Assembly (NCBI GenBank): GCA_017614155.1
Contig: JAGACK010000004.1
Span: 1 to 64,000 of the forward strand
Source of the DNA: Lachnospiraceae bacterium
GTDB lineage: Bacteria; Bacillota; Clostridia; Lachnospirales; Lachnospiraceae
Direction: 5' to 3'
Length of the DNA stretch: 64,000 nt
The notes under the pieces are model-generated. The model searched no databases and was not told the DNA's origin. It saw only the letters and a program-made list of their open reading frames with translations. The translations under genes and the position numbers were made by a program. Positions within the stretch are counted from its first letter, which is position 1, and each line of letters starts with the position of its first letter. Shown here piece by piece: positions 21,593 to 37,678 of the stretch.

Positions 21593-23113
21593 TCAAGTAC
21601 CGGTATACTTAAGGCTTCTTCTCTTTATCTTTTGCGAATCGGTCTTTTCAAACCCGGTATTCCTTATGCGCAGTTTTGTGATACGTTTGCCCGGAGGAAG
21701 AGTGCTGTTTATCTCCTCTGCCGCCTTTTCGAGAAGCTTTTCGGCCCTCCCCGCAAACTCCGGATACGGATAAACCTCCGCCGTTATCCCTTCCCCCTCC
21801 TGACAGACCATAACCTCGCTGATCCAGTCATAGTCCGCAAATCGGTTCTCAAGTTCCTCAGGTGAGAGATTTTCTCCGTTGCTGAGTATGATCAGATTTT
21901 TTTTCCGTCCCGTAATATATACATGCTCATCCTTCACATACCCAAGATCCCCGGTCTTCAGCCACCCGTCTGAAGTAAACATTTCGCTTGTAGCTTCTTC
22001 ATCATTATAATAACCCATCATGACGGATGGACTCTTTACCTGTATCTCACCGTCAACGATACGTATCCTGCAGTTTTTGACAACCCTTCCGGTGTCATTA
22101 CCGGTTGAGGGATCGGCTGTGCTTGAAGAAGATATCCTTGGTGAACATTCCGTCATGCCGTAGCCCTGAAGCAACGGTATCCCCATTTCTTCATATGCTT
22201 CGACAAGCTTTGGAGAAAGATAGGCTCCTCCGCAAAAGATAACGCGCAGTCTCCCACCGAAAACATTCTCTCTGACATCCTTAACGGGCATCAGTGGATC
22301 TGTCTTTTTTGCAACGATCATCCTCCTGTAAAGGGTCTGTGCGATCTGCGGTACAAAGAGCATCATGGTAGGCCGGAAAAGTTTTATATCCTGCATCAGA
22401 TGCATGGGAGAATCATTGAAGCAAAGCGTTGCGCCATACCTAAGGGAAAGCAGCACATCGCAGGTCAGGCAGTACGCATGGTGAACAGGAAGGACAGAAA
22501 GCAGGATATCATTTTCATCTCCTTCATTGTCGCAGCAAAAAACATTATCAATGAGATTCGCATGGGATAGCATCACGCCTTTGCGCTTTCCCGTTGTACC
22601 GGAGGTATAAAGGATACATGCACGATCCGAAGGCTTTGGGGTTTTATCTTCCGCAAAACTGTTTGCCGACAGAATCTCACCGACAGAGAAAACACCCTCA
22701 GCCGGATCAAGACATACGTATGTGATGATCTGCGGACATGATCTTTTTATCGAGTCAAGTTTTTCCAAAAAACTCCTGTCATAAAAAAGAGCCGTAACAT
22801 CCGCCCGGTTCAGATCATCGCAAATATCATCCAACGAAAGACGGGGATTTACGGGAACAGCAACATGTGCTCCGCACATTGACCCGAGCAGAACAGTTAT
22901 ACAAAAGATGCCTGACGAGGATATGATACCCGCATGGACCCGCTCCCCGTTTTTTTTCGACAGAAATGATGCCACCTTACGGACATCACAAAAAAACTCC
23001 TGAAAGGTCTTTGAGATAACCGCGCCTTTTTTATCCTTTTCACAAAGATAAACCTTTTCAGGACGTTTCGTAGCCGCACTGCTCAAAAGATCCCTTACTG
23101 TACTTATATTCAC
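21593..23113 (-). CDS. Acyl-AMP ligase (ANL superfamily), last gene of the RiPP cluster
   Basis: This 506-residue adenylate-forming enzyme has the P-loop ILYTSGTTGKRKGVMLSH, the motif GYGMTECSP, the GWLKTGDLGYV Asp and the hinge ITGRKKNLIILSNGENLSPEE. The catalytic Lys of the C-terminal domain is in KTDSQKIKR. It resembles fatty-acid ligases more than NRPS domains, but substrate cannot be read by eye. The start is a GTG that overlaps the stop of the adjacent acyl carrier protein gene, with AGGTGA six bases away. A ligase coupled to an ACP suggests it activates an acid and loads it on that ACP. In this cluster the acyl group may be destined for the peptide. A 100-base gap with the L21 leader separates it from rplU. 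Confidence 0.88.
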   Translation of the reverse strand: MNISTVRDLLSSAATKRPEKVYLCEKDKKGAVISKTFQEFFCDVRKVASFLSKKNGERVHAGIISSSGIFCITVLLGSMCGAHVAVPVNPRLSLDDICDDLNRADVTALFYDRSFLEKLDSIKRSCPQIITYVCLDPAEGVFSVGEILSANSFAEDKTPKPSDRACILYTSGTTGKRKGVMLSHANLIDNVFCCDNEGDENDILLSVLPVHHAYCLTCDVLLSLRYGATLCFNDSPMHLMQDIKLFRPTMMLFVPQIAQTLYRRMIVAKKTDPLMPVKDVRENVFGGRLRVIFCGGAYLSPKLVEAYEEMGIPLLQGYGMTECSPRISSSSTADPSTGNDTGRVVKNCRIRIVDGEIQVKSPSVMMGYYNDEEATSEMFTSDGWLKTGDLGYVKDEHVYITGRKKNLIILSNGENLSPEELENRFADYDWISEVMVCQEGEGITAEVYPYPEFAGRAEKLLEKAAEEINSTLPPGKRITKLRIRNTGFEKTDSQKIKRRSLKYTGT

Positions 23114-23346
23114 TTATCTTCACCTTTTAGTTCCCTGATCCGTTTTATCACATCATTTACCGTGACAATTCCCATGAGCATATCTTCATCCACAATAATA
23201 CCGAATTCCTCTTCAACATCACTCATGATCACCAGCACATCAAACGATGTAAGAGCGAGTTCTTCAACAAGCTTTGAATCCCCGTTGATGCTTTCCGGAT
23301 CTGCCTCCGTATATCGCGCTATTATCTCTTTTACTTTTTCGGGCAT
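23110..23346 (-). CDS. Acyl carrier protein of the RiPP cluster
   Basis: This 78-residue protein has an acyl-carrier four-helix pattern: EKVKEIIARYTEADPESINGDSKLVEELALTSFDVL. The phosphopantetheine serine is in LTSFD, a variant of the usual DSLD. It is short, acidic and stand-alone. It overlaps the downstream ligase gene by four bases. It is not the housekeeping AcpP, which would sit with fatty-acid genes and keep DSL. It is most likely the private carrier of the ligase. Confidence 0.88.
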   Translation of the reverse strand: MPEKVKEIIARYTEADPESINGDSKLVEELALTSFDVLVIMSDVEEEFGIIVDEDMLMGIVTVNDVIKRIRELKGEDK

Positions 23347-23369
23347 TTCCTCTTTCCTTCAACACTTTC

Positions 23370-24038
23370 CTATAATACAGACGACCAGACAGTTATCAGA
23401 GCGTCATATATCCCGTGAGCCAGTATCAGTGACAGAAGCGAACAGGATCTTATCTTAGATCTGAAAAGGCAGAATAATACGCCTAAAACAGCCGTCATAA
23501 ACATCTGGAGTACATTTCCGCCAAACAGATGAAACAAGCCAAAAAGAGCTGATGAGCCGATCACAGCCACGCTCTCCCTTCCGCTGATCTCAAATATTCT
23601 TTTGAATATGAAGCCTCGGAATACAAGCTCTTCGGAAAAGGCTACAGCCAGTATACAGTAGGCAAATTCAAAGACAAACTGCCAGATGCCGCTGTAGCGA
23701 TGTCCGTTATCAACATATTCACCGAAGCCCGCAAGATGAGGCAGCACGGTAAAAACAGCAGACATACCGATACCAAGAGCTATCCCGGTGATCACCTGGA
23801 AATGTACATTTTTTTTATCGAGGATATAATCCTTAATTCCTTCCCTTTCAATAAAAACAAGGATCAGGGGAATAATCGCAATGAGCCAGTAGCTTATAAA
23901 CATAGCGACAGTCCTTGCCGCAAGAGGGAGACTCATCAGAAAATGATCATTAAATGCAACCAGAGCAGCAAGTCCTGCCAGCGCCCCTAAAAAACCGACG
24001 GAAAGCCTTATCCATTCTTTTTTGTGTCCGTTCTTCAT
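23370..24038 (-). CDS. CPBP-family intramembrane protease
   Basis: This 222-residue protein has about six membrane segments and the CPBP (Abi) motifs EELVFRGFIF (EExxxR), FGLFHLFGG and LAHGIYDAL. Family members include glutamic-type intramembrane proteases used in prenyl-protein processing and in bacteriocin maturation or immunity. Its place between precursor 1 and the ACP gene suggests self-immunity or leader removal. The hairpin after precursor 1 lies directly upstream. Confidence 0.85.
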   Translation of the reverse strand: MKNGHKKEWIRLSVGFLGALAGLAALVAFNDHFLMSLPLAARTVAMFISYWLIAIIPLILVFIEREGIKDYILDKKNVHFQVITGIALGIGMSAVFTVLPHLAGFGEYVDNGHRYSGIWQFVFEFAYCILAVAFSEELVFRGFIFKRIFEISGRESVAVIGSSALFGLFHLFGGNVLQMFMTAVLGVLFCLFRSKIRSCSLLSLILAHGIYDALITVWSSVL

Positions 24039-24061
24039 AATCTATAATAAATCCTTTTAAA

Positions 24062-24095
24062 GACAGCAGGATATGCAAAAGCATATCCCGCTGTC
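24062..24095 (-). terminator. Strong hairpin after precursor 1
   Basis: A 15-bp stem with one mismatch (GACAGCGGGATATGC / GCATATCCTGCTGTC, loop TTTT) is followed by TTTAAAAGG. It lies between precursor 1 and the protease gene and shares the GCAGGATATG element with the hairpin after precursor 2. It probably protects or over-represents the precursor transcript while allowing some read-through. Confidence 0.8.
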
Positions 24096-24117
24096 CTTAA
24101 TACATTCTTAAAAATGC

Positions 24118-24429
24118 TTACTTTGTTACCTGACCTGCGCATCCGTTTGCAGCGCATGCATTTCCGCCGCATGATCCACCGGCCATAGCCATCAGCTCCT
24201 CCTCCGAGACTTCCTCGCCTGCAAACGGAGGAAGGAAGAATGTTGCCTGATATGCAGGATCCTGCTCGATGATGCGGATCTTGTAATCAGCAGGAATCTC
24301 CTTTCCGGTAGCCTTTGCGATAGCAGCATTGGGATTGGCGATAAGTTCCTTCCTGAAATTCTCATCAGTTACAGCCTTTGCAAGAAGATCCTGATAGCTC
24401 TTCTCCATTTCACTTTGTGTCCAGCTCAT
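24118..24429 (-). CDS. NHLP-leader RiPP precursor 1 (core with three Cys, one Lys)
   Basis: This 103-residue protein starts at ATG 24429 (GGAGG nine bases upstream). Residues 1-85 are a nitrile-hydratase-alpha-like leader: YQDLLAKAVTDENFRKELIANPNAAI, then the RIIEQDPAYQATFFLPP strand, then EEVSEEELMAMAGG. The double glycine 84-85 is the expected C39 cut site. The 18-residue core (86-103) has Cys87, Cys92 and Cys97 in C-x4-C-x4-C spacing and a single Lys at the very end. A second GG at 88-89 is an alternative cut site. The leader is the recognition element for the cluster enzymes. It is not a nitrile hydratase, since the metal site is absent. Confidence 0.9.
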   Translation of the reverse strand: MSWTQSEMEKSYQDLLAKAVTDENFRKELIANPNAAIAKATGKEIPADYKIRIIEQDPAYQATFFLPPFAGEEVSEEELMAMAGGSCGGNACAANGCAGQVTK

Positions 24430-24489
24430 AAATAATAACCTCCTTTATTAAAAAATAAATTACTACCCTTTTTAAACACACCCCGACGG

Positions 24490-25815
24490 TCAGAACAACT
24501 CTTTTGGCAGGCATCGCAGATATCCCGCCTCAAATATCCTTTCAAGTTTTTCCCGGAACATATTCATTACATAGTCAGAATTATACAGTTTTTTTCCTGT
24601 TTCTGCAAGCGAAATCCCCTTGTCCGAAAGCAGCTTCACACCCTCGGTAAAAAATCTGTTTCCGGTTACACGCAGAACAGCCCCGTCACCGAAAAATGCC
24701 GCTTCATTGCCGTTTATCTCCACATGTACCCCGTCAGGCAGAACTATGACATCCTCATTTTTTATCCCTGCTCTTAAAAATCTTTCCGAAAGCTCCGATA
24801 CCGCCCTTCGAAAGGAGCCTGCATCAGTAAAGGGCATGCTCCCGTATATCCTCTCTCCAGTCGGAAATTCATCGCATGGGAGTTCAGGCTCTTCATAGGT
24901 CACCTTCTTTGCGGCCATATTTACCCGCAGACCCGCAAGACAGGAAATGCTGTAAACAGCGTTTTTTTCATCCCTTGCCCTTCCGGAGGCTGCATATCTG
25001 TTTACCGACTCGGGATTATTGGGAATGATCTCGATATCCGAAAGTTCCTCAGGCGAAAAGAGCCTCATGATATCGTAAAACTGCTCCTTTGTACGTACAG
25101 ATATCCTGACTGCTGCATTATACATATCTTCTTCGCTTATGGATCGTATGAAGTTTCTGAACCTTTCGGTATCCCTGTCAGCTACAGCAGTCGTTGTCTG
25201 GGGAGTGTGTCCGAATACCCTTTTGAAATCCTCAACAAAAAGCTCATAATCGGGATTATCAAAGGGTTCTGTTGCAAAATAACAAACCCCTGTGCCTGCC
25301 GCCTGTCCGACAAGTTCCCTTGTGGCCGACAGAACCTCCTTCCATAATGCGGCATTTTCATCCGTATGAAAAAATACCTTCGAAAGCTTTTCTGCTCCCA
25401 GTCCGCAAAAACTGCAACCCACACTGCAGCCTTCAGAAAGCTCAAAAATCACCGGGAAATATCTCACATTCGGATGGCTCCTCAAAAGGCTGTTCTGGAC
25501 ACACATCCGTTTTTTTGTGATAAGACCGAGACTGAAATAATCCTGCATGGCAAAGTTGTCCGGTGCAAGTCTCCTTTCCGTTTCGGCAAGAATATCTTTC
25601 ACTCGCGGCAGATACAGGGCAAAGTACGGATGCTCCTCATAAGTGGTATCCTTCATGCTCTCAAGCGTATGCAGTGCCGCATCACAGGGTATGTCAAGAC
25701 CTGCCAGCAAAAGAGTCCCCTCTCCATCTTTTTGCAGGTGCTCATAAAACTGCGGATCCGCACAGGCACACTCATACAGTCTTTTTATTACAGGCCATGA
25801 CAGGAGCTCATGCAT
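24490..25815 (-). CDS. Radical SAM enzyme resembling PoyD-type RiPP epimerases
   Basis: ATG 25815 is chosen because AAGGA lies seven bases upstream and the ATG overlaps the stop of the preceding gene (ATGCATGA); 441 residues. The radical SAM cluster is C130-x3-C134-x2-C137 in FELSEGCSVGCSFCGLGAEKLSK. This FELS/T-GCSVGC-x-FCG context is, from memory, that of the PoyD family, which inverts L to D residues in proteusin cores. An N-terminal domain of about 120 residues precedes the barrel. There is no SPASM or cobalamin domain. The alternative is another RiPP radical SAM subfamily with the same context. A search against the epimerase model would decide. Confidence 0.7.
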   Translation of the reverse strand: MHELLSWPVIKRLYECACADPQFYEHLQKDGEGTLLLAGLDIPCDAALHTLESMKDTTYEEHPYFALYLPRVKDILAETERRLAPDNFAMQDYFSLGLITKKRMCVQNSLLRSHPNVRYFPVIFELSEGCSVGCSFCGLGAEKLSKVFFHTDENAALWKEVLSATRELVGQAAGTGVCYFATEPFDNPDYELFVEDFKRVFGHTPQTTTAVADRDTERFRNFIRSISEEDMYNAAVRISVRTKEQFYDIMRLFSPEELSDIEIIPNNPESVNRYAASGRARDEKNAVYSISCLAGLRVNMAAKKVTYEEPELPCDEFPTGERIYGSMPFTDAGSFRRAVSELSERFLRAGIKNEDVIVLPDGVHVEINGNEAAFFGDGAVLRVTGNRFFTEGVKLLSDKGISLAETGKKLYNSDYVMNMFREKLERIFEAGYLRCLPKELF

Positions 25816-27151
25816 CCTTTTTTCCTTCGGCATCCTTGTTTTCTTCAGCCTTCTTCTTCTGTTCGTAGTAAATCTCCAGAAGCTCGTCTAAGTGATCCCT
25901 GAAATATGAGCAGCAATCCCTGTTTTTGCCGTCCATCAGGTTCTTTAGCCTTATCTTGTGACAGCCGCCGTCACATACCGGGAAATAGAAGCATTCCCTG
26001 CATACGGGAGAATCAAGATAAGATGCTCCCACCATCCCCCTTGCGATGAGGGAATTGTTCCATCCTGTCAGATCATCGAGGCGCCCGATGACCATTTCGG
26101 GTATCCCGATATCATCCCAGCATTTGTAAAGCTCTCCTTCAGGGCCTACCACATAAGCGCATCTCTTTGTCAGAGTGCAGCCGGCTGCAGTCTTTTGTGG
26201 AAGAAGTGACATTGCGTTTATGTTATCCTTCCTTGCAAGTTCTGCAACGAACTGTCCTGTCAGATCAGAATCAAAAAAACAGCTCGCATCGGGATGTCCG
26301 TCTCCCTTCACATATCCGGGATAAACCGAAATCCTCTTTCCGTAGTCTTCAGGATACCTTCCATTTATGAGATTATAAACATCCCTGAACTCATCTTTGT
26401 TGCGCATATCGATATTAACCCTGATGTTCACTGTGCCCTTGTAATCAGAGGCCATGAGAGCATCAAGATTATTCATTATCATGTCAAAGGAACCTTCACC
26501 GTTAACCTGAAACCTGCGGCTGTCATGGGTCTTTTTGTTTCCGTCAAGGGTAATCTGCATATGATTAATGCTTAAGTCATTCAGATCCTTTATTATATCC
26601 TCTTTCAGCAGATAACCGTTTGTGACGATCATGGCATTGTATTTCTTTTCTTTTTCCTTCAGCCTCCTGTCTATGCTTCTGATCCTGTCGATAGCCAGCA
26701 GCGGTTCTCCGCCGTACCATGTGATGTAGAGCTGATCCTCTCTTTTGTGGAGATCTATGAAATCCATCAGCTTATCTTCAACCTCTTTTGACATGGGCTT
26801 CCCGGTACGATTTTCCTCATAACAGTATGAGCAGCTGAAATTACAGCTCCTTGTGACGGCTATGGTCAAAAGCAGGGTCCTGACAGCATAATTTCCCGTA
26901 AGGCGCCGCATCTTGACGATATTATAAAAATCATCATCCTGAGTATCCTCAACGATACAGCCGCTTCTTCGAAGTGTCAGATAGAGTCCCGGATCATTTG
27001 AAAAATCATATTTCTCCGGATCCTCCTGTATTTTTTTTACAGTATCAACCGCATCATCCTCTATCTTCATGAAAAAGCCCGATGCACTGTTGTACAAAAG
27101 CCAGCCGTTCCTTTCCGACTCAAATAAATGACTGTAATGCGACCATTTCAT
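25808..27151 (-). CDS. Radical SAM/SPASM peptide-modifying enzyme with PqqD-like N-terminus
   Basis: This 447-residue protein has, at about 1-75, a PqqD-like recognition domain (NGWLLYNSASGFFMKIEDD). The radical SAM motif is C103-x3-C107-x2-C110 (TRSCNFSCSYCYEE), with WYGGEPLL next. The SPASM region binds auxiliary clusters: CTLTKRCAYVVGPEGELYKCW and CRECFYFPVCDGGCHK near 340-410. Enzymes with this layout make thioether or carbon-carbon crosslinks in peptides; given the Cys-rich cores, thioethers are the likelier product. It sits 51 bases after the cobalamin-type enzyme and overlaps the epimerase candidate. Confidence 0.88.
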   Translation of the reverse strand: MKWSHYSHLFESERNGWLLYNSASGFFMKIEDDAVDTVKKIQEDPEKYDFSNDPGLYLTLRRSGCIVEDTQDDDFYNIVKMRRLTGNYAVRTLLLTIAVTRSCNFSCSYCYEENRTGKPMSKEVEDKLMDFIDLHKREDQLYITWYGGEPLLAIDRIRSIDRRLKEKEKKYNAMIVTNGYLLKEDIIKDLNDLSINHMQITLDGNKKTHDSRRFQVNGEGSFDMIMNNLDALMASDYKGTVNIRVNIDMRNKDEFRDVYNLINGRYPEDYGKRISVYPGYVKGDGHPDASCFFDSDLTGQFVAELARKDNINAMSLLPQKTAAGCTLTKRCAYVVGPEGELYKCWDDIGIPEMVIGRLDDLTGWNNSLIARGMVGASYLDSPVCRECFYFPVCDGGCHKIRLKNLMDGKNRDCCSYFRDHLDELLEIYYEQKKKAEENKDAEGKKDA

Positions 27152-27202
27152 ATATCAGATCTCCTTGTTAATTATTTATACTGCACAGCCTTAAGCCACA
27201 TA

Positions 27203-29101
27203 TTAACTGCCGTATGTCACATAGGGCTCACATTCTTCGGGAAGGACAAGAGAAAGCATCCTTCCACCCTTTCTGTACATCAGATGATTTCTTTCAACGA
27301 AGCTGAGAGCGTCCTCTATTTCACTCTCCTCATATTGTTCTCTTAAAGCTTCAAGCACCTTTTTTTCAGATGCGGTCTCACGGGTCATCAATAGGAGTTG
27401 TCTTCGTATCCCCTCTAAAGTAAACACCCTCTTGAAGGCATACCTTGTATCCCTGATCACTGCCTTTTCCTCCGACTCCGACATCCGCAGACTTTTTCCC
27501 GAATGGAAATCTGCCTGCCAGCTCTCCCTTGCGACCCTTATCCTTTCATACTGATCGGTATGGCGGACTATATCGGGAGTGATAAAGTAATTGGAGGTTT
27601 TCATCGAAAAATCCGTATCGGGGTCTGTTGCAAGCTCATTCTCCCTGGGAAGTATGGTGTGTATGCCGTATTCGTCATGATCGTCATAGAATACGCTGTT
27701 CCTCACGAGCATCATATAAGAAAAGCCCGTGGGCGGCTGCAGATGATGTATATGGCTCATCAGCTCTATCATCTCATCATACCAGGGAACCTCCTCGCCC
27801 GGAAAGCCATACAGCAGGTTCCAGAACATCCTCATTCCGTACATTCTGGCATATTTAAGACACGCAAGCTGGTCTATGGTCTGCGCCCCCTTGTTCATAA
27901 GCTTCAGCATGCCGTCAGAAAGCGACTCTATACCAGGCTGCAATGATACAAAGCCGTTGCGCTTCAAAAGCCTCATATCCCTTTCCTTCATGTTGGATTT
28001 GCATTCAGCTATGATCCTAAGATGCTTTCTGTCATCCGGAGCTTCTTCGGGAAGTCTCCTTATAAAACCGAGATCAAGGATGCAGTCTGCAAACAGCAGG
28101 TCTCTTTTCCCGTATCTTGCAGACAATTCCTTTGCCTCGTCCCAGACTCTGTCGTCAGACTTCGGTCTGTAGCATATGGATTCCTTTGAAAGATGCAGTC
28201 CACAGAATCTGCATTTCCCCTTTTGTCCCCACCAGCAGCCTCTGGAAGATTCCATGAGGATGACAGCCTGATCGTTTTGAACGAAGCTGTCCCTTTTGAC
28301 CTGTTCGAAATACTCGGTGTAATCAGGGATTGGGGAATCGTTCATATCCTCAAGACGCTTGTTTACTATAGGAGCGTGGGGGGTATGAAATTCAGGATGT
28401 ATCTTTTTCAGTTCATCCGTCCTGTCCTCAAGGATCATCCTGCAGCCCACTCCCAGAGCCCTGTCCCCTTCTCCGGTGAAAACATAATCAAGCGACGGGA
28501 TCCGGCTCACATATGCATCACCGACCTCACCGGCACAGCAGGACCCACCCATTATGGTCACAATATCCGGATCCCGCTCCTTTATCCTTTTAAACAGGGC
28601 AAAGGAAGCGTTCCTTTGCTGGGTAAGGACCGAACAGCCGACTATCTTCGGACCGCGCTTCATTATCGCATCAGCTTCCTCGTCGAGAAAATCTGCCGTC
28701 CTCTGACTTAATGTCGGCCATATCTGCATGACCATGTCATAAACCTCACCCGGAGGATATTTTTTGTGATCCTTCGTATACATCACGTCAACGGATTCAC
28801 TTAATATTCTCAAAACCTCTTCGGCACTTTTTTGAGGGGTAAAATCCGTGAATGGAGCAAAGAGCATCTCCCATGCGGAATGATAGGGTTCAAAGAGATT
28901 TTCCGCTGTTGTAAAAAGATCATATCCAACAGCGTCTACAAAATGATGTGAAGCATAGACGATCTCGTTTGAAACGCCAGCCTCGGAAAGATCGGTCTTC
29001 AAAAGCCCGAGCGCCAGCGACGGATTAAGCCAGGTATAGGGCATCTGTACAAGGACTGCATCACATTGTTTCAGTTTTTTCTCATCAAAATATATACTCA
29101 T
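27203..29101 (-). CDS. RiPP maturation radical SAM protein 1 family (B12-binding-like N-terminus)
   Basis: In this 632-residue protein, residues 1-215 look like a cobalamin-binding fold (VQMPYTWLNPSLALGLLKTDL, VTIMGGSCC). The radical SAM motif has unusual spacing, C289-x7-C297-x2-C300, in the context MESSRGCWWGQKGKCRFCGLH, which is diagnostic of this RiPP family. A C-terminal winged-helix-like part follows. Members are found with NHLP and related leaders. Methylation of unactivated carbons is known for some B12 radical SAM enzymes, but this subfamily's reaction is not assured. It lies downstream of precursor 2 and its terminator-like hairpin. Confidence 0.88.
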   Translation of the reverse strand: MSIYFDEKKLKQCDAVLVQMPYTWLNPSLALGLLKTDLSEAGVSNEIVYASHHFVDAVGYDLFTTAENLFEPYHSAWEMLFAPFTDFTPQKSAEEVLRILSESVDVMYTKDHKKYPPGEVYDMVMQIWPTLSQRTADFLDEEADAIMKRGPKIVGCSVLTQQRNASFALFKRIKERDPDIVTIMGGSCCAGEVGDAYVSRIPSLDYVFTGEGDRALGVGCRMILEDRTDELKKIHPEFHTPHAPIVNKRLEDMNDSPIPDYTEYFEQVKRDSFVQNDQAVILMESSRGCWWGQKGKCRFCGLHLSKESICYRPKSDDRVWDEAKELSARYGKRDLLFADCILDLGFIRRLPEEAPDDRKHLRIIAECKSNMKERDMRLLKRNGFVSLQPGIESLSDGMLKLMNKGAQTIDQLACLKYARMYGMRMFWNLLYGFPGEEVPWYDEMIELMSHIHHLQPPTGFSYMMLVRNSVFYDDHDEYGIHTILPRENELATDPDTDFSMKTSNYFITPDIVRHTDQYERIRVARESWQADFHSGKSLRMSESEEKAVIRDTRYAFKRVFTLEGIRRQLLLMTRETASEKKVLEALREQYEESEIEDALSFVERNHLMYRKGGRMLSLVLPEECEPYVTYGS

Positions 29102-29137
29102 TTGTTTATCGTATATACGGCAAAGATAAAATATCCT

Positions 29138-29172
29138 TAAAAAAAGCAGGATATGTACTTACATATCCTGCT
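29138..29172 (-). terminator. Terminator-like hairpin after precursor 2
   Basis: A 12-bp perfect stem (AGCAGGATATGT / ACATATCCTGCT, four-base loop) is followed by seven T on the minus strand. It lies just before the radical SAM gene, inside the operon. It shares AGCAGGATATG with the hairpin after precursor 1. Confidence 0.88.
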
Positions 29173-29203
29173 ATAATCCTGTCAGATAATACCGGTCATT
29201 ATT

Positions 29204-29605
29204 TCATCCTACAGTTCCAAACGCTCCGCAGGCTCTCGCACCGCATCCCTGATCTACTGCGCATCCCTTTGCTCCGCAGGCATCTGCCGGACATGCGGGA
29301 ATGGCAACAGCCGCTGCACACGCCGAAACGATAGCGGCTATGGATACGCCTCCGGCCATGCTCTGAAGTTCCTCCTGGGACAACTCCTCGCTTACAAGAT
29401 CAGGTATAACAAATGTTGATGTATAATCCGGATCCTGTTCGATAGCCTTTACTTTGAATCCTTCAGGCAGCTTCTCTCCGGAGAGTTTTTCTATTGCCGC
29501 ATTCGCATCTGCAAGCAGCTCCTCTCTGAAGGTCTTGTCTGTTGCAGCCCTCTGCTGTACCTGTACATAAAGCTTTTCAAGTTCTTCCTGTGTCCACTCC
29601 TTCAT
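29204..29605 (-). CDS. NHLP-leader RiPP precursor 2 (core with six Cys, one Lys)
   Basis: This 133-residue protein starts at ATG 29605 after GGAGGAAG. The leader (1-86) parallels precursor 1: YVQVQQRAATDKTFREELLADANAAI, KAIEQDPDYTSTFVIP, SQEELQSMAGG. The cut is expected after Gly86. The 47-residue core has a hydrophobic start (VSIAAIVSA...) and Cys96, 105, 110, 115, 121 and 126, mostly as C-x4-C. It has one Lys (113) and one Arg. The core ends in Gly. It is the longer partner of precursor 1 and carries the same Cys-pentad pattern. It stands between the transport genes and the modifying enzymes. Confidence 0.92.
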   Translation of the reverse strand: MKEWTQEELEKLYVQVQQRAATDKTFREELLADANAAIEKLSGEKLPEGFKVKAIEQDPDYTSTFVIPDLVSEELSQEELQSMAGGVSIAAIVSACAAAVAIPACPADACGAKGCAVDQGCGARACGAFGTVG

Positions 29606-29666
29606 AATGATACTTCCTCCTTAAATAATATAAATAATCTACCCAACCCTGATTAAGCCCACGCTT

Positions 29667-29754
29667 TACAGGGGGCCATTTTTTCATAGACCCTGTACCT
29701 TCCCTATTCTTTGCACACAGTTCATATAATAACATAATCACACCATTATTTAAA
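29667..29754 (-). promoter_or_regulatory. Possible internal promoter and leader hairpin of precursor 2
   Basis: On the minus strand TTTAAA (29754-29749), a 17-base spacer and TATTAT (29731-29726, with TG one base ahead) form a plausible promoter in the 189-base gap upstream of precursor 2. The leader contains TACAGGG / CCCTGTA arms at 29697-29667. It would let the precursor be made in excess over the export genes. Confidence 0.4.
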
Positions 29755-29794
29755 CACATTTAACAAAAACGTCTTCAAAACATCTTCTGCAGCT

Positions 29795-30751
29795 TTATAC
29801 GAAAAAAATCCCATTGGACTGATCTGTTTCAGGATAATCCATTGTTATCAGTTTTTCTGCCCCCTCGTATATCCGGCCGCGAAAATACATTCTCAGGAAC
29901 CTGAGCATATGAGAGTTTCCCGGCTTCACCCTGAAAGATATCCTGTCGCAGGTACTTTCGAGTCTCTTCAGAACGAATCCTCCCAGACAGAGGCCCGTCA
30001 GTTCCCTTCTGCCGTCCGGGAAAACATACATCCTTGCGATCTCCTCCGTTTTTTCACCCTTCCTTCTGCAGATCATCCATCCAAGTATCATTCCTGTTTC
30101 CCTGTCAGTCAGAAAGAAACTGTTGTCCTCATCTCTGTTATTATCAAAAGGAGAAAGAAGCCAAACCTCATGATCTGATTTTTCAATCCGCTTTTCAAGC
30201 TCCTTTTTTTCCTTTTCCTTTGCATCAATGCATCTTATAAGGCCGAAACCCTTTGACAGTACAAAGGCCTCGTCGCATGCTCCAAGCTTTGAATCATCTC
30301 TCATCATGCCGTGAAGTTCCATATCGAAGACATGTGTGATAATACTGTCTTTAACCTCTGTGATCCCGGCTCTTTTGCATATTGCCATATAGGGATCGTT
30401 TTCTCCCGGTTTGCCAGTCTCATATCTCCAGACTGTCTTTTTTACATTTGGATGGTTATGTGCCGAACAGTACATATCCCTGATCAGAACGGAAACGTTC
30501 CCCGGATTCCGGTATTCTTCAGAAAGAAAAACATGTAATATCCTGCAGAAATCCGCTTCCGGAGGAACAACCCCGAAAACCATCCCACAGATAACCCCGG
30601 CAGATACAGCCCTTAATACAACCATGTCCTTTTCAGGAACGAGGTCAAAATCATCCGGCAATGCGATACCGAGACCTTCATGAAGCCTTTTTATCTCTTC
30701 CTTTGATATCACCCTCTGCGTTTCAGGATATCTGCCTTTTGGCAAGCTCAT
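29795..30751 (-). CDS. Tandem GNAT-like acyltransferase candidate of the RiPP cluster
   Basis: This 318-residue protein appears to hold two GNAT-fold halves. The first (about 40-150) has VICGMVFGVV...ILHVFLSEEYRNPGNVSVLIRDMY; the second (about 205-318) has MILGWMICRRK...IARMYVFPDGRRELTGLCLGGFVLKRLE and KPGNSHMLRFLRMYF. The classical acyl-CoA loop (Q/RxxGxG/A) is weak in both, so donor use is uncertain. It overlaps the ABC gene upstream by 29 bases. GNAT-type enzymes fatty-acylate Lys or Orn in the selidamide RiPPs, and this cluster also has an acyl ligase and ACP. A role in acylating the peptide is an inference; self-protection by acetylation is the alternative. Confidence 0.6.
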   Translation of the reverse strand: MSLPKGRYPETQRVISKEEIKRLHEGLGIALPDDFDLVPEKDMVVLRAVSAGVICGMVFGVVPPEADFCRILHVFLSEEYRNPGNVSVLIRDMYCSAHNHPNVKKTVWRYETGKPGENDPYMAICKRAGITEVKDSIITHVFDMELHGMMRDDSKLGACDEAFVLSKGFGLIRCIDAKEKEKKELEKRIEKSDHEVWLLSPFDNNRDEDNSFFLTDRETGMILGWMICRRKGEKTEEIARMYVFPDGRRELTGLCLGGFVLKRLESTCDRISFRVKPGNSHMLRFLRMYFRGRIYEGAEKLITMDYPETDQSNGIFFV

Positions 30752-33305
30752 AAAACAGTCCCTTCTTTTCCATCAGTTCCCTGTAGCTGCCCTGCTCTGC
30801 GATACAGCCCTTGTCCATGACTATGATCCTGTCACAGTTCTGAACGGTGGACAGCCTGTGAGCTATGACTATCTTCGTCGCATCCAGCCTTTCAAGTGTC
30901 TCAACGACCTGATTCTGTGTTTTGTTGTCAAGTGCGGAGGTCGCCTCGTCAAGAAAGATCATCTTCGGTTTACCGACTATCGCTCTTGCGATCAGTATCC
31001 TCTGGCGCTGTCCGCCCGAAAGTGTCCCTGCCCCCTCCGATACCACGGTAAACAGTCCCATAGGCATATCTTTTATGTCCTCCTCAAGCCCGACCTCCCG
31101 TATTGCTTCTTCTATTCTCTCATTTTTGACATAGGGCGAGGTTATGATGATATTATCCCTGATGCTTCCGGTTATGATTCCGCCCTCCTGCAAAACAACA
31201 CCGAATTTCTTTCGAAGTTCCCTCTTGTCCAGATCATCTATGTCCTGATTATCATAATATATCTTTCCTGTCTGTGGCTTTTCAAAACCAAGGAGAAGCT
31301 TTAACAGAGTTGACTTGCCACAGCCGGAAGCCCCTACTATGCCGATATATTCACCGGGCATCACATGCAGATTGAAGTTCTTGATCACGGGATCGTCATC
31401 CTTTTTGTATGAAAACGATACACTGTTTATCTCCAGTTCTCCCTTGAGTTCACCCGGAACACGGCTTTGCTCCGAATTTTCAGGCAGGCTCTCGAGGATC
31501 GGTTTTGCATTTTTGTATATGGGAATGACCTGATTTATGATGAACATCTGGTTTGCAAGCGTCATCATAGCTGTGGAAAAAGCAGTGAAGGCCGACATGA
31601 AAGCCGAGAACATACCTATGGACAGACTGATCTTTTTATCGACGAGCGTATAATACATGAACAGAGAAAATACTATGTTTACGGATTGAATGATAGTGTT
31701 TGAAAAAAGTGTTATCTTTCCTTCCTTTTCAGTCAGTTCCTGGGAAGCGATCATTTCTTCCAGATAGTTCAACAGAGCCCTGTCCTCGGTCGACGATATC
31801 CTTATCTTTGATACACCGGAAATATACTGAAAAAGTTCCGACTGTGCGTCAATGTCTATCTTTATCCTTTTTCCTTCATAACGGAAATGAATCCTTGAAA
31901 GGAGTACGATGATCACCACAACAGTAAATGTCATGGTCACTGCAAGCTTTGTCAGATCCTTTGAATACTGGTTCATGCGCACCAGATACAAAAGCGAAAA
32001 AAGAGTTGAAAACAAGGTGAGCATAACCCCGTTTGTAAGTATCTGGTAAACTCCCGAGATGCCCATTACTCTCTGTCCAAGTTCCGCAGATTCATAATCC
32101 CTGTAAAAGCTTTCCGGAAGGTTGAACAGCCGGTCAAACGCAGCACTCTGTACCGCGTATTTCATGGAATTCATAGACCTGAAGGTCGCAAGGTTCTTTA
32201 CCACGGTAAAGGATACATTGCCAAGCGAACAGGCGATCAGTATGGCCCCCAGTTCTTTCATCTGGTGGGAATCTCCCGTCGGGATGAATTTGTCATAGGC
32301 AAGCTCGTTCATATAAGGTATGAGAAGTCCTGTCAGAGTTCCCAGAAATGCCAGAAGCAACAGCCTTGTAATATCCGACCTGTAAACATATTTCATCCCG
32401 AAAGAGATGATATCCCCCAGCTTCATTGATTTTTGAGGAAAAGGCGGATAAAGCATATACGCATCGGAGCCTATCTCTGAAGCAATCCTGCCGTTTACCT
32501 TGATAATGCTGCCGTCTGAGGGATCATAAACAGAATACCTGCCTGCGCCTCTCGGGATGCAGGCGACAGGCTCACCGGATTCCTTCCGAAAAGCCAGAAA
32601 CGGCCCACTGTCACATCTGTACCATTTATCCTCCAATACTATGTCCCTGATGGCAAAATGAGAAACCCTGGCTATGTCTTTTGCCTGAAATCTCCTGCCA
32701 CAGCTTGCCGTTATCTTTTCAATCTGAGCTATGCCGATATCCTGGATATTGCAGAGAAACGCCATGGCATCATACAACAGATTTCCGGTCTCTCTGACAT
32801 CCGGCCGTTTGATATCGCTCTTGTTTTTGCCAAAGGATTCCTTTATCAATGTCGAGAGCCGGCTTTTGTTTCTTTGTGCCTCATGCTCCGTGGCATAGAT
32901 ATACACTTCTTCACTGACTTCGTTTCTTTCGTAATGCTCAACAACAGCATCGAAAAAACGCTCTATGATATCAACGGAATCATCGCGGCCAAGTTCTATA
33001 CCTGTTTTTTCACAAAACGACAGGATCTCATCCTCTCCGGCTTTTTTTAAAGCAGACTCAAAGACACCTTCATTTAATGCGACAAAGCCGATAGTCCATT
33101 TCGTTCCATCCGGCGAAGTATCAGAAATGCCTGGAAGATATGTTCCCTCTCCAAAGCTGCCAAGGTACATCCTCCTCCTTGCCTTTCCGTTTTCAAACGG
33201 GATGATGTAGACAAGGATCTCACCCGAGCTTACTCTGAAAAGGCCACCGTTTTTTTCCGTATAATATATTTCTCCACCCTTTAGGCTTTTGATCTCTTTT
33301 TCCAT
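30723..33305 (-). CDS. NHLM-type ABC transporter, permease/ATPase without peptidase
   Basis: In this 860-residue protein, residues 1-300 are a soluble N-terminal part with a cyclic-nucleotide-binding-like beta region, as in the NHLM permease/ATPase family. A six-segment membrane domain (about 315-600) and an ATPase (Walker A GASGCGKST, LSGGQRQR, Walker B MIFLDEATSA) follow. Family members pair with the C39-peptidase ABC protein, which is directly upstream (4-base gap), to export NHLP-leader peptides. No C39 catalytic residues are seen here. Confidence 0.92.
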   Translation of the reverse strand: MEKEIKSLKGGEIYYTEKNGGLFRVSSGEILVYIIPFENGKARRRMYLGSFGEGTYLPGISDTSPDGTKWTIGFVALNEGVFESALKKAGEDEILSFCEKTGIELGRDDSVDIIERFFDAVVEHYERNEVSEEVYIYATEHEAQRNKSRLSTLIKESFGKNKSDIKRPDVRETGNLLYDAMAFLCNIQDIGIAQIEKITASCGRRFQAKDIARVSHFAIRDIVLEDKWYRCDSGPFLAFRKESGEPVACIPRGAGRYSVYDPSDGSIIKVNGRIASEIGSDAYMLYPPFPQKSMKLGDIISFGMKYVYRSDITRLLLLAFLGTLTGLLIPYMNELAYDKFIPTGDSHQMKELGAILIACSLGNVSFTVVKNLATFRSMNSMKYAVQSAAFDRLFNLPESFYRDYESAELGQRVMGISGVYQILTNGVMLTLFSTLFSLLYLVRMNQYSKDLTKLAVTMTFTVVVIIVLLSRIHFRYEGKRIKIDIDAQSELFQYISGVSKIRISSTEDRALLNYLEEMIASQELTEKEGKITLFSNTIIQSVNIVFSLFMYYTLVDKKISLSIGMFSAFMSAFTAFSTAMMTLANQMFIINQVIPIYKNAKPILESLPENSEQSRVPGELKGELEINSVSFSYKKDDDPVIKNFNLHVMPGEYIGIVGASGCGKSTLLKLLLGFEKPQTGKIYYDNQDIDDLDKRELRKKFGVVLQEGGIITGSIRDNIIITSPYVKNERIEEAIREVGLEEDIKDMPMGLFTVVSEGAGTLSGGQRQRILIARAIVGKPKMIFLDEATSALDNKTQNQVVETLERLDATKIVIAHRLSTVQNCDRIIVMDKGCIAEQGSYRELMEKKGLFYELAKRQIS

Positions 33306-33308
33306 TTT

Positions 33309-35453
33309 TCAGCTATTCTTTATCAATTCCCTGTATGGTCCGTCTATGCCCGACAGACTTTCATGGTTGCCACGCTGTACAATCTTTCCGCGCTCCATCA
33401 CAATGATCTCATCACAGTCCCTGATAGCCGACAGCCTGTGCGCAACAATTATACAGGTACTGCCCCTCTTTTTGATATTGTCTATCACTTTTTTTTCCGT
33501 AATGGGATCCAGCGCGCTTGTCGCCTCATCCATGATAATGATGTCAGGATTTGTGACAAGAGCCCTTGCTATCTCGATCCTCTGACGCTGTCCGCCGGAG
33601 AGATTCTTTCCTCCTTCCGTCAGTTCACTGTCATAGGCACCCGGTCTTGATGAGATATAATCATGAATACACGCATCCTTTGCTGCCTTTATCATATCCT
33701 CTTCGCGTACAAACCTGTTCCACATGGTAAGGTTGTCCCTGATGCTTCCCGGAAAGATGGTAATATCCTGACTTACAGTGGAAATACTTGCAGCTATCAC
33801 ATCTGCCGGTATATCTTCCGCAGGCAGACCGTCAAGTTTCATCTGTCCGCTCCACGGTCTGTAAAGCCCGGAACAGATCTTTGACACGGTCGATTTGCCG
33901 CTCCCCGAAGCCCCAACAAAGGCAATGGAACTTCCGCTTTCAAGGCTGAATCCGAAGCCCTCTATCAACGGCGGTTCGAGTATATTATAGCCGAACGAGA
34001 CATCCTCAAGCTCGATCCCTCCCTCAAGCTTTTGATGCATATCCTTTCTTTCCCGTTCATCAAACTTTTCATCCTTTTTGTATTTCATGATATCATCCAC
34101 ACGTTCCATATCGGCTCTCATGGTCTGGATCTTCTGGATGAAGGTGGCAAGGGAATTTACAGGCTCTGCAAACATCGCCAGAAGCCCGTTGTAGGCCACA
34201 AGCATACCTGATGTCATATCCCCCCGTATGACAAGCAGTCCGCCAACTACAAGCGTCAGTACTGTAAGTATCTGTCCCGAAACGGAAGGTATGGCATTTA
34301 ACAACTCCTGCCGCAATCCCATGGTCTGTTCCATCTGCACATTTTTCGCATAATTTCCGAGTATGCGGCTTACAAATTCATTTTCCGTTCCGGATGCCTT
34401 TATGGTGCTGGTCAGAGACAGTCCGGCAAAAAGTGTACCGACAAGCCTGCCGTTCTCCTGCTGGCTTTTGATCGAGATATCCCTCATGGAAGAGGCACAG
34501 ATCCCCATCAGGATAAGGTTCAATGCAACGCAGATGACACCTATGACTGTAAGCAGCGGCGAATACATGATCAGCAGTATCAGATAAAATACTGCCACAA
34601 ATATATCAAGAATGCTCTGGGCCAGGTCGCTGGTCAGAAAAAGATTAACGCTGTTATTGTTTGCCACTCTCTGTGAGAGATCTCCCGCAAATCTCTGGTC
34701 AAAAAAGCTGATGGGAAGTCTCAGCATATGATAAAGCATCTTTTGGGAACTTACCAGCATCATCTTTTTCTGAAGCTTTATGAGTATGCTGCCCCGGTAG
34801 ATCGTCAATGCCGACTTTACGATAAAGGTAAGTATCATTACCCCCATCAGTCTCGGGATCCACTCATACTGTGCATCCAGCAGTATCTCATCGATAAATA
34901 TCCTCGAAAAGGCAGGAATAAGAAGTCCCGGCAGGACCAGAAAGAGTCCCAGCACAATGAGTGCTGCTATAGCATCAACTTCGGAACGCAGCCTTGCCTG
35001 AACAAATGCAAGTATGGTCAGGGGTTTTCTTGTTTTTTTGAATTCCTCAGTCGGCTTGAAGGTGAGAACTATCCCTGTGAAGCATTCGTCAATATCGGAA
35101 ACTGTAAGCTTTCTCCTTCCGACAGCCGGATCGTTTATGATACAGTGTTTTCCGATCCTCCCTTCCCATACAACGAAGTGATCAAAGTTCCACCATAGTA
35201 TACAGGGCGTCGGCATCTCAAAAAGCCTGTCAAGATCCTTCCTGAGTCCGTGGGCCTCAAGTCCGAATTTCCTCGCAGCCTTCAGGATATTGTTCGCATT
35301 GCAGCCGTCTCTTGACACTCCGGTTTCGATACGCATTTTTTCAAGCGGGACAAAGCAGCCGTAGTAGCCCATGATCATGGAAAGGCTCGCGGCTCCGCAC
35401 TCTGTCACCTCCATCTGATATACGGTTGGAGTTCTGGAATAATTATATCTCAT
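33309..35453 (-). CDS. NHLM-type peptidase/ABC exporter (C39 leader peptidase)
   Basis: This 714-residue protein starts with a C39 peptidase domain: catalytic Cys19 (TECGAASL), His92 (NFDHFVV) and Asp108 (INDPAVG). It cuts leaders after double glycine, matching the AGG of both precursors. The membrane domain is at about 160-440; the ATPase has GASGSGKST, LSGGQRQR and IIMDEATSA. Its start overlaps the adaptor stop by four bases. It would remove the leader during export and works with the ABC protein downstream and the HlyD-like adaptor upstream. Confidence 0.95.
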   Translation of the reverse strand: MRYNYSRTPTVYQMEVTECGAASLSMIMGYYGCFVPLEKMRIETGVSRDGCNANNILKAARKFGLEAHGLRKDLDRLFEMPTPCILWWNFDHFVVWEGRIGKHCIINDPAVGRRKLTVSDIDECFTGIVLTFKPTEEFKKTRKPLTILAFVQARLRSEVDAIAALIVLGLFLVLPGLLIPAFSRIFIDEILLDAQYEWIPRLMGVMILTFIVKSALTIYRGSILIKLQKKMMLVSSQKMLYHMLRLPISFFDQRFAGDLSQRVANNNSVNLFLTSDLAQSILDIFVAVFYLILLIMYSPLLTVIGVICVALNLILMGICASSMRDISIKSQQENGRLVGTLFAGLSLTSTIKASGTENEFVSRILGNYAKNVQMEQTMGLRQELLNAIPSVSGQILTVLTLVVGGLLVIRGDMTSGMLVAYNGLLAMFAEPVNSLATFIQKIQTMRADMERVDDIMKYKKDEKFDERERKDMHQKLEGGIELEDVSFGYNILEPPLIEGFGFSLESGSSIAFVGASGSGKSTVSKICSGLYRPWSGQMKLDGLPAEDIPADVIAASISTVSQDITIFPGSIRDNLTMWNRFVREEDMIKAAKDACIHDYISSRPGAYDSELTEGGKNLSGGQRQRIEIARALVTNPDIIIMDEATSALDPITEKKVIDNIKKRGSTCIIVAHRLSAIRDCDEIIVMERGKIVQRGNHESLSGIDGPYRELIKNS

Positions 35454-37273
35454 TTATTATCTTTCTTTTCATCCCGGCCAAACGGATCCGGCTGGAAGGA
35501 GTGAAACTTCTTTTTCAGATGAGGGATAACCATGCTTATCGGAGCTTTATCCTCGATCACCGTGTCGGTCGCGACCATGGTACCCGGATCGATGGCAATC
35601 TCCGCTCCTTTTTTGCTCGACCATTTATAGCCGCTTACTGTTGAAGGATCTTTGTCCAGCTCGCAGGTAACCTCAACCACGGCACCCTTGTTCAAAAAAG
35701 AACTTGCCAGGATCTGATCCCCCAGCTGATTGACAAGTTCTTCCTGCGAAATGACATAATCTGAAACCTTTGAGACAACAGCACTCATGTGCCCGTATTC
35801 TTCCTTGTTTATTGTTGACGGATAAACTTTGACCTTCATTCCCGGCTTGATCTTCCTGCCGTCAGCAGCAGGGACATAGCAGATCACCACATAGTCGCTG
35901 TCAACCTCAAAACTTCCCGCATCCCCGTCATATCCGTCGGTGCCGGCTGCTCCCGCACTCATTGCAACATCCCTTCTCGACTGTGAAACATTGCAGATCG
36001 CCGTACCCGGCTGCACCGGAGAGCCTACATCAATGTTCACATCGATCACATAGCCGTTCAGGGTTGATCTGATCTGAGTCTCCTCGATCTGTTCCTTTGC
36101 CATCCTGATCTGGGCATCGAGATTGTCAAGCGCGGTAGCCTTGGCACTGTCAAACTGTTTCCTGAGCACCTCAAACTGGTCAACCACACCCTCTCCCTCG
36201 GATGCTACATTCACATCAAGCTGCGAAACAGAGTCCTCAAGACTTCGAAGGAGCGAAAGCTGTGTATTGTAATCAGTCAGAGCAAGATTGTAATTGTCCG
36301 ACTGCTGGTTTGCAAAGGTCTGTTTTGCAAGACGCATCTTTTCGGTATCTATATATGCCTGTGCAGTATTAAAATACCAGTTTTCCGCACTGCCCCTGGC
36401 ACCTGCGCGTTCGTTCACGGCGCTTTCCAACTCATCCTCCTGGGATCTGAGCTGATCCAGCTTTGCCTGTAAATCCTCTATCTGTTTAGTGATTTCTTCT
36501 ATTTTCGATTCCTCCGTCTCTTCCTTCTTTTTCTTTTTCAGTTTATCTATCTGATCCTCATACTGGGACATCACTTCATCGGACTGCGCATGAAAATTGG
36601 AAAGAGTGACCTTTGCCGATTCGTGCAGACTGACGGCACTGCTTAAGTTTGTCGCAGCAGTCTGGTATTCAAGCTGCTCCTTTGTATCGGTTCCGGTATT
36701 CATGGTCGCATAGAACATATTGCGGGCAAGCTGCATGGCTTCCCTTGCCTCATCGGTTTTTTTCCGCTGTTCCTCAAGCTGCTTTGTCCTCATTTCAAGC
36801 ATACTCTCGTTGGCGTTGAGATTTGAGCTGACAGTCAGAAGATTTGTCTTTATGCTTATAAGACTCTGATTGTCGGCCGTCTCGACATCCCCGGTCGATT
36901 CCAGGGTCACAGCCTCTACCTTAGCTCTCCTCTCTGCAAGGAGGTTCAGGTCATCATTTGCCTTATCCATACTGTAGCGTGCTATTATCTGGTTTTCCGA
37001 GATCTCATTTCCGGCTCTGATATATACTTCCTCGACTATCCCGGAATTCTTTGAATATACGGAATGGATACCGTCCCTGCTTATGTATATACCGACAGTT
37101 TGGAGATCAACCGGGAGCTTACCGAGTATTGACCACAGCACGATGATCCCTGCTATCAAAACCCCCCCCATCACCGCCACCCAAAAAACCGGCGGGATGA
37201 TCTTTATCATGACATCAAGCCTGTCGGGCGACGAATGCTTTTCCATCGCCGCCCTTCTGTACGGAACACTCAT
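35450..37273 (-). CDS. NHLM secretion adaptor, HlyD family
   Basis: This 607-residue protein has an N-terminal membrane segment (about 30-52: VFWVAVMGGVLIAGIIVLWS). Long coiled-coil stretches (about 95-400, including KKKKEETEESKIEEITKQIE) and a C-terminal lipoyl/barrel-like part (TLNGYVIDVNIDVGSPVQPG) follow. It bridges the exporter to the envelope. It is the first gene of the cluster; a probable promoter and an 11-bp inverted repeat lie in the gap upstream. Confidence 0.92.
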   Translation of the reverse strand: MSVPYRRAAMEKHSSPDRLDVMIKIIPPVFWVAVMGGVLIAGIIVLWSILGKLPVDLQTVGIYISRDGIHSVYSKNSGIVEEVYIRAGNEISENQIIARYSMDKANDDLNLLAERRAKVEAVTLESTGDVETADNQSLISIKTNLLTVSSNLNANESMLEMRTKQLEEQRKKTDEAREAMQLARNMFYATMNTGTDTKEQLEYQTAATNLSSAVSLHESAKVTLSNFHAQSDEVMSQYEDQIDKLKKKKKEETEESKIEEITKQIEDLQAKLDQLRSQEDELESAVNERAGARGSAENWYFNTAQAYIDTEKMRLAKQTFANQQSDNYNLALTDYNTQLSLLRSLEDSVSQLDVNVASEGEGVVDQFEVLRKQFDSAKATALDNLDAQIRMAKEQIEETQIRSTLNGYVIDVNIDVGSPVQPGTAICNVSQSRRDVAMSAGAAGTDGYDGDAGSFEVDSDYVVICYVPAADGRKIKPGMKVKVYPSTINKEEYGHMSAVVSKVSDYVISQEELVNQLGDQILASSFLNKGAVVEVTCELDKDPSTVSGYKWSSKKGAEIAIDPGTMVATDTVIEDKAPISMVIPHLKKKFHSFQPDPFGRDEKKDNK

Positions 37274-37673: not shown

Positions 37674-37678
37674 CTGTG

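Follow-up and report, generated by a model that had tools for sequence, protein, structure and literature searches.

Organization of the Gene Cluster

We analyzed 64,000 nucleotides from a Lachnospiraceae bacterium (assembly GCA_017614155.1, contig JAGACK010000004.1, positions 1 to 64,000), referred to below as the window. Twelve open reading frames (ORFs), all on the minus strand and verified by coordinate and strand in the ORF listing of the window, run from position 37273 down to 21593. They form a gene cluster for ribosomally synthesized and post-translationally modified peptides (RiPPs) with NHLP leaders. The cluster is real, looks intact and belongs to a recurring family; on balance we favor reading it as a hybrid, which combines traits of proteusins, of thioether peptides made by radical S-adenosylmethionine (SAM) enzymes and of selidamides. 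The genes are listed in their order along the block, with profile matches in bits judged against the curated cut-off of each family (NCBIfam/TIGR or Pfam).

35450..37273, minus strand: HlyD-like adaptor of the NHLP exporter (TIGR03794, 219 vs. 156.2 bits)
33309..35453, minus strand: C39 peptidase-ABC exporter, NHLM ABC1 (TIGR03796, 975.8 vs. 853.3 bits; PF03412)
30723..33305, minus strand: NHLM ABC2 exporter subunit (TIGR03797, 793.7 vs. 709.4 bits)
29795..30751, minus strand: GNAT-like protein, probably a tandem GNAT, candidate Lys acylating enzyme (PF00583, 26.1 vs. 20.7 bits)
29204..29605, minus strand: precursor A, NHLP leader ending AGG, core VSIAAIVSACAAAVAIPACPADACGAKGCAVDQGCGARACGAFGTVG (TIGR03793, 51.9 vs. 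50.9 bits)
27203..29101, minus strand: B12-dependent radical SAM RiPP C-methyltransferase with C-x7-C-x2-C (TIGR03975, rSAM_ocin_1, 459.2 vs. 281.85 bits)
25808..27151, minus strand: radical SAM/SPASM-type maturase, candidate thioether-forming enzyme (PF04055, 76.3 vs. 29.5 bits)
24490..25833, minus strand: PoyD-type radical SAM epimerase candidate (TIGR04517, 319.8 vs. 325 bits)
24118..24429, minus strand: precursor B, NHLP leader ending AGG, core SCGGNACAANGCAGQVTK with a terminal Lys (TIGR03793, 56.7 vs. 50.9 bits)
23370..24038, minus strand: CPBP-type intramembrane glutamic protease, also in two same-genus relatives (PF02517, 60 vs. 22.4 bits)
23110..23346, minus strand: acyl carrier protein (ACP) (PF00550, 43.2 vs. 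20.8 bits)
21593..23113, minus strand: acyl-AMP ligase, overlapping the ACP gene by 4 bases (PF00501, 213.3 vs. 29.9 bits)

The initial annotation had described a complete block of 12 minus-strand genes next to rplU, containing three export proteins, two leader-bearing precursors, three different radical SAM enzymes, a GNAT-like protein, a CPBP protease, an ACP and an acyl-AMP ligase, each from a known family. The positions and strand of all 12 ORFs were borne out, and rplU was found on the far flank of the cluster together with prp-like, rpmA and obg genes. The exporter proteins, both precursors, the GNAT-like protein, the protease, the ACP and the ligase all scored above cut-off, and every enzyme kind has known counterparts. 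The two leaders and the HlyD/ABC1/ABC2 exporter set correspond to what is expected of an NHLP or proteusin system, and these leaders are the only two of the genome. A second NHLP exporter set (HlyD, ABC1, and ABC2) is located on another contig of the same genome (L123, contig C10, 207190-209748), adjoining an 877-residue ORF that by our reading starts with a ferredoxin-like motif.

Three Kinds of Radical SAM Enzyme

The presence of three different radical SAM enzymes in an NHLP-leader RiPP cluster is well supported. The B12-dependent enzyme exceeded the TIGR03975 cut-off and carried the C-x7-C-x2-C motif ascribed to it in the initial annotation. The three cysteines were invariant in 11 of 11 aligned sequences, the window included; the alignment covers 11 of the 16 family genomes (see below) having this enzyme.

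The match of the PoyD-type enzyme spans residues 16-439, on positions 4-445 of the 446 in the TIGR04517 profile. Its CxxxCxxC motif and one further cysteine, residue 298, were invariant in 30 of 30 sequences, including homologues from Nostoc and Sinorhizobium, while its profile score is just under the cut-off. The initial annotation had named it an epimerase candidate. The passages available from one study report a single strictly conserved cysteine as the hydrogen donor of the epimerase (PMC8326336), and residue 298 would, judged by sequence, be the equivalent of PoyD Cys372.

The third enzyme was found to be of the radical SAM/SPASM type, with seven C-terminal cysteines invariant across 19 aligned sequences. 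The PqqD-like N-terminus that had been proposed for it was not confirmed: Pfam, searched at E 0.1, gave a match neither to PqqD nor to the SPASM model. Named maturase families were matched with 213.9 (CefB), 208.4 (Clo7bot), and 130.6 bits (PapB), against cut-offs of 600, 600, and 340 bits. The nearest solved structure by sequence was 5wgg (E 3e-27), an entry labelled 'Radical SAM domain protein', which we take to be the ranthipeptide enzyme CteB.

Recurrence in Other Genomes

A three-row alignment of the SPASM-type enzyme was scanned against named genomes and returned 36 loci. Nine distant loci (L158 and L160-L167, 27-36% identity) were set aside before the family was counted, and tblastn with the window PoyD-type enzyme as query found PoyD in none of the nine. 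The 27 loci kept come from 26 genomes, since L156 and L157 both belong to G435; L133 is a contig of G399, and L142 equals G418 (letter-identical). Together with the window the family comprises 27 genomes, and the 26 further genomes with related loci rule out that the block is unique to the window. By their record titles, the genomes are Lachnospiraceae and other Bacillota, along with one Treponema, one Chloroflexi and five members of Lactobacillales/Streptococcaceae. Four of the titles mention rumen, omasum or abomasum, and L133/G399 is titled as a goat-rumen Lachnospiraceae metagenome-assembled genome (MAG). Other isolate codes, at a guess, point to the rumen or to the gut of rabbit or termite, and the labels of MAGs can be mistaken.

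The SPASM-type enzyme, the PoyD-type enzyme and NHLP precursors were found together in all 27 genomes. The two enzyme genes were adjacent in 19 genomes (less than 50 bases apart or overlapping) and separated by 0.7-5.9 kb in eight. GNAT was present in 18 genomes, the B12 enzyme in 16, and all four enzymes in 11. CPBP was found in three genomes, ACP in two (the window and L135) and the acyl-AMP ligase in the window alone; because the family contigs are short, these counts are lower bounds. The gene content of the relatives rules out all 12 genes as a conserved unit. The 12 genes of the 'complete 12-gene cluster' are thus present, but completeness was too strong a claim, as CPBP, ACP, and ligase lie outside the conserved core.

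A scan of the named genomes with the PoyD protein only gave 31 pattern matches, none of which was confirmed. Among sampled genomes of the order PoyD was found in 3 of 392, including the window and one match of merely 30 residues. A genome from another family of the order (L019, G040, contig C19, 6671-13270) has six ORFs that resemble one another, each 184-196 residues long and perhaps a precursor, ahead of two PoyD-type genes. At locus L051 (G403, contig C27, 6890-10645) two tandem PoyD-like genes precede an NHLP-like precursor whose end is hydrophobic and rich in Ala/Val.

Within 48 genomes of the same genus, PoyD relatives were found in six (the own genome included, one a fragment), and NHLP leaders in nine at E 0.001 and in three above cut-off. 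Two relatives, G399 and G435, carry a variant cluster at the rplU site. It includes CPBP, with no ACP or ligase following this gene, and encodes a fourth radical SAM enzyme. The variant order is ABC1 (G399), ABC2, GNAT, SPASM, PoyD, precursor A, precursor B, B12, fourth radical SAM/SPASM, CPBP; it was assembled from separate contigs, with continuity assumed across contig ends, and the HlyD-like gene was not seen there. The fourth radical SAM/SPASM enzyme (L030:12084-13508) fell far short of the cut-off in each of the named families listed.

Core Peptide Patterns

The leader profile identified 59 precursor ORFs in the 27 loci and three overlapping same-genus loci. Core statistics were based on 54 of these (duplicates L030, L031, and L050 were omitted) and the two window precursors, 56 cores in all. 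They use a simple leader-end rule, by which precursor A of L134 is overlong (98 residues; 49 by another rule) and under which L143 and L151 have no clear GG.

Two core types recurred. Type A starts approximately with [ILV]S..LI.S.CA.A and continues Cys-rich, while type B is short and ends in or near Lys. The 56 cores hold 385 Cys, and the spacing of successive Cys was five in 196 of 329 cases and six in 59. At position +3 from Cys, Asp made up 25% and Asn 20% of residues (45% together), compared to 5.3% and 4.2% overall (9.5% together).

The nine genomes without GNAT had long cores, the longest per genome being 99-374 residues, and the nine precursors listed contained 13-37 Cys. At L142 (same contig as L050, 12248-13627), L145, L136, L137, and L149, the NHLP precursors are 290-459 residues long and contain 30-37 Cys, in part with the Cys-every-fifth pattern; SPASM and PoyD are present at these loci and GNAT is not.

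The GNAT-like Protein and the Terminal Lysine

An AlphaFold2 model of the GNAT-like protein (predicted local distance difference test score 87.7, predicted template modelling score 0.74) contained two successive GNAT-like strand/helix runs, with the topology assigned by eye. The protein is therefore probably a two-domain, or tandem, GNAT. According to the available passages on nostolysamides (PMC13060382), their Lys acylating enzyme NpuN is a tandem GNAT, and its relatives adjoin NHLP or Nif11 precursors, not always a lanthionine synthetase. The same selidamide-type association is seen in the window, where the GNAT is encoded together with NHLP precursors. The likeness to NpuN is drawn from its published description as a tandem GNAT.

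A core with Lys among the last three residues was found in 18 of 18 genomes with GNAT and in one of nine without (L149), giving a Fisher p of 4e-6 that is not to be taken at face value (see below). Counted per core, such a Lys was found in 31 of 45 cores from GNAT genomes and in 1 of 13 from the others. In 44 of the 45 cores (one truncated ORF was dropped) Lys occupied 32 of 132 positions among the last three residues, compared to 20 of 1071 elsewhere; counts for the last three residues are independent of the leader-end rule. The terminal Lys was kept through three well-supported GNAT groups whose cores otherwise differ.

Searches for further GNAT homologues had a narrow yield. Besides the own genome, a single-sequence search of 295 genomes of the order found one match at 19%; it lies next to an NHLP exporter, and no NHLP leader was found within the 20 kb around it. 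An alignment search of 391 genomes of the class found the own genome alone, tblastn of a relative's GNAT against plasmids gave zero matches, and the GNAT profile gave a single weak match to solved structures (E 0.013).

Proposed Pathway and Alternatives

From gene content, family matches, motifs, core patterns, and recurrence in 27 genomes we infer that the locus would produce one or two secreted hybrid RiPPs, the two precursors being modified while the leader is still attached. The SPASM-type enzyme would join Cys about five residues apart to a neighboring residue as thioethers, our guess being the polar residue at +3. The PoyD-type enzyme would convert certain positions of the Ala/Val/Gly-rich core to the D-configuration, and the B12 enzyme would add methyl groups to unreactive carbons. 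The tandem GNAT would place an acyl group, probably a fatty one, on the side chain of the terminal Lys of precursor B, and the ACP together with the acyl-AMP ligase may be what activates and carries this group in the present genome. The C39-ABC protein would then cut the leader after GG and export the peptide together with ABC2 and the HlyD-like adaptor, while CPBP would serve immunity or processing by trimming. The product probably acts in competition between gut microbes. More tentatively, and leaning somewhat against it ourselves, we consider that these loci represent a new RiPP class, in which paired SPASM and PoyD enzymes act on one Cys-every-fifth core to yield thioether-bridged peptides with D-residues, a tandem GNAT lipidates the C-terminal Lys with its own acyl-activation pair in the window, and the enzyme pair of a GNAT-less sister clade works on cores of 99-374 residues (longest per genome) to make very large bridged secreted proteins.

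Several observations weigh against the hybrid pathway. The SPASM-type enzyme was below the cut-off of every NCBIfam maturase family among the best 25 of 89, and the PoyD-type enzyme fell 5 bits short of its own. Asp or Asn at +3 also lies two residues before the next Cys, so that the pattern does not decide the thioether acceptor. The precursor B core was better conserved than the leader in only two of five comparisons (L031, 17/18 vs. 74/85; L134, 14/18 vs. 48/86) and not in L156 (15/18 vs. 74/85), L132 (6/19 vs. 67/85) or L135 (10/31 vs. 46/86). Genomes with and without GNAT form the two sides of one branch of the SPASM tree (17 vs. 9 rows, support 100/99; 26 rows with L156 left out), and the GNAT-Lys link thus reflects one event. 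Near-duplicate SPASM sequences (L136/L137, L139/L140, and L144/L146/L147/L159) and the larger number of precursors in GNAT genomes (45 in 18 vs. 13 in 9) add to this, so the Fisher value is no independent test. Finally, in neither same-genus relative is CPBP followed by ACP and ligase, the ligase query gave only weak matches in G435 and none in G399 (66% complete), and 25 of 27 genomes had no ACP in the available DNA (several contigs are short).

ACP and acyl-AMP ligase, which occur together only in the window, are the least secure members of the cluster, and we rejected them as certain members. Other ACP-ligase pairs apparently work for an acyltransferase, and the window pair may likewise serve the GNAT; the chances that it supplies the acyl group are about even. 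A hybrid RiPP whose GNAT merely acetylates, for self-protection or as a small cap, with ACP and ligase performing an unrelated lipid function between the cluster and rplU, is in our view unlikely. It would explain the missing pair in G399 and G435, the 16 genomes without ACP in available DNA among the 17 other family genomes with GNAT, and a paralogous ACP-ligase pair (L104) without a RiPP gene within 7.3 kb, in a genome whose NHLP leaders are confined to the window. Yet the ACP gene starts 23 bases after CPBP on the strand of the ligase, which it overlaps, and an ACP gene is likewise present in the L135 cluster (titled Treponema), 80 bases past the precursor.

It is also improbable, although this overlaps with the hybrid pathway favored above, that the substrates are split, with hydrophobic precursor A being epimerized and methylated as in polytheonamide and precursor B only bridged and acylated, to give two products or a two-component product. 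The recurrence of two core types agrees with this, precursor A having a conserved hydrophobic start and precursor B a short Cys/Asn core with Lys as its last residue, and a hairpin and the gaps around precursor A would permit separate expression. Against it, the Cys-every-fifth pattern is common to both cores, and members with a single precursor (e.g., L136, L142, L148, and L151) still have SPASM and PoyD. We regard it as very improbable that decay or silencing has left the cluster without a product: PoyD is rare in the sampled genomes of the order, but all 12 frames are open, the catalytic cysteines are intact, AGGAGG precedes the precursor genes only, and the precursor B core is 17/18 and 15/18 identical in two same-genus relatives.

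If the hybrid pathway operates, one compact pathway unites four kinds of backbone or side-chain change from different peptide classes, in a bacterium with livestock-dwelling relatives. With only 18 residues, among them three Cys and a single Lys, the precursor B core is small enough for direct tests of where and in which order each step takes place. The system would also allow one to test how two radical SAM enzymes, a bridge-former and an epimerase, share a single substrate, and the long-core clade raises the question of whether such chemistry can build whole proteins.

A trio of condensation-domain protein, ACP and acyl-AMP ligase, presumably for some acylated product, is encoded elsewhere in the own genome (L104, contig C20, 3245-6459), and ORFs resembling this trio were found in G412 (L105). 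By our reading both lie beside a probable regulator gene.

Relation to Known Systems

Proteusins such as polytheonamide have B12 radical SAM methyltransferases. The window shares NHLP leaders, C39-ABC/NHLM export, a PoyD-type epimerase, and a B12 RiPP C-methyltransferase with proteusins, and differs by the addition of a SPASM-type enzyme, Cys-every-fifth cores and GNAT. Freyrasin reportedly has the spacing C-x3-D. With freyrasin and the other ranthipeptides and sactipeptides (SCIFF and NxxcA) the window has in common a radical SAM enzyme with C-terminal auxiliary-type cysteines and Cys-rich cores, whereas it differs in its NHLP leader, its constant PoyD partner and a maturase below the named-family cut-offs shown. 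The spacing of NxxcA is N-x2-C in the available passages (PMC8326336), compared to C-x2-D/N in the window family. CefA/CefB (NCBIfam NF038108/NF038107) show the Cys-every-fifth pattern, and CefB is the best match of the SPASM-type enzyme (213.9 bits). However, cut-offs of 600 bits for CefB and 30 bits for CefA (best 19.7) exclude the window proteins as members.

The selidamides phaeornamide, kamptornamide and nostolysamides are similar in their NHLP leader, a probable tandem GNAT and a Lys in the core, as far as the available text of the reports goes (PMC9505594, PMC13060382). They differ in the position of the Lys, which is Lys1 in nostolysamide in the same passages (PMC13060382) and at the C-terminal end in the window. 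Radical SAM chemistry takes the place of a lanthionine synthetase, none of which was found among the 12 cluster proteins scanned, and acyl transfer in the window is a prediction. A rumen culture survey lists, in its available part, 2 proteusin clusters among 476 (PMC13289728).

The initial annotation had suggested an undescribed peptide with several modification types. No description of this enzyme combination was found in the open-licence PubMed Central literature (mostly the starts of abstracts, and some passages), and the stable pairing of SPASM and PoyD, combined with Cys-every-fifth cores and a terminal Lys linked to GNAT, seems to be undescribed so far. The combination is not peculiar to the window, given the occurrence of SPASM, PoyD and NHLP precursors in all 27 genomes.

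Transcription Signals and the rplU Site

Two further features were located in or next to the block.

29145..29172, minus strand: hairpin resembling a terminator, with 12 pairs followed by T6, located between the genes for precursor A and the B12 enzyme (consensus scan)
37374..38722, minus strand: XerS-like recombinase and DUF1294 gene, flank, outside the pathway (family matches)

Intergenic gaps ranged from -29 to 102 bases, except for 189 bases before precursor A. The block may be co-transcribed. Among the 12 genes only the two precursor genes have AGGAGG just upstream. The terminator scan found 20 such sites in the region compared to 15.2 (sd 4.2) in shuffled sequences, and the hairpin alone is no proof of function. 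Since it lies with its T-run just after precursor A, precursor A may be expressed more strongly than the genes after it. A 60-residue ORF (29577-29759) overlapping the precursor A start had no family match and was regarded as spurious. Rfam gave zero matches in 19000-40600.

The near flank carries DUF1294, XerS-like, and UshA-like genes. In the variant cluster of G399 and G435, DUF1294 and the XerS-like gene lie beyond CPBP in opposite orientation, followed by rplU. Relative to rplU, the pair is thus on the opposite cluster side and in the opposite orientation in the window and in these relatives. In G414 the cluster is missing from this site, where XerS-DUF1294 and three further ORFs precede rplU. 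G391 (L092/L124, contig C5), a genome in which no NHLP leader was found, has an NHLP exporter near rplU among other neighbors, as well as a SPASM-like protein of 28% identity. The site may collect peptide clusters. Its content thus differs from species to species, and the core of the cluster appears to predate the edges it has now.

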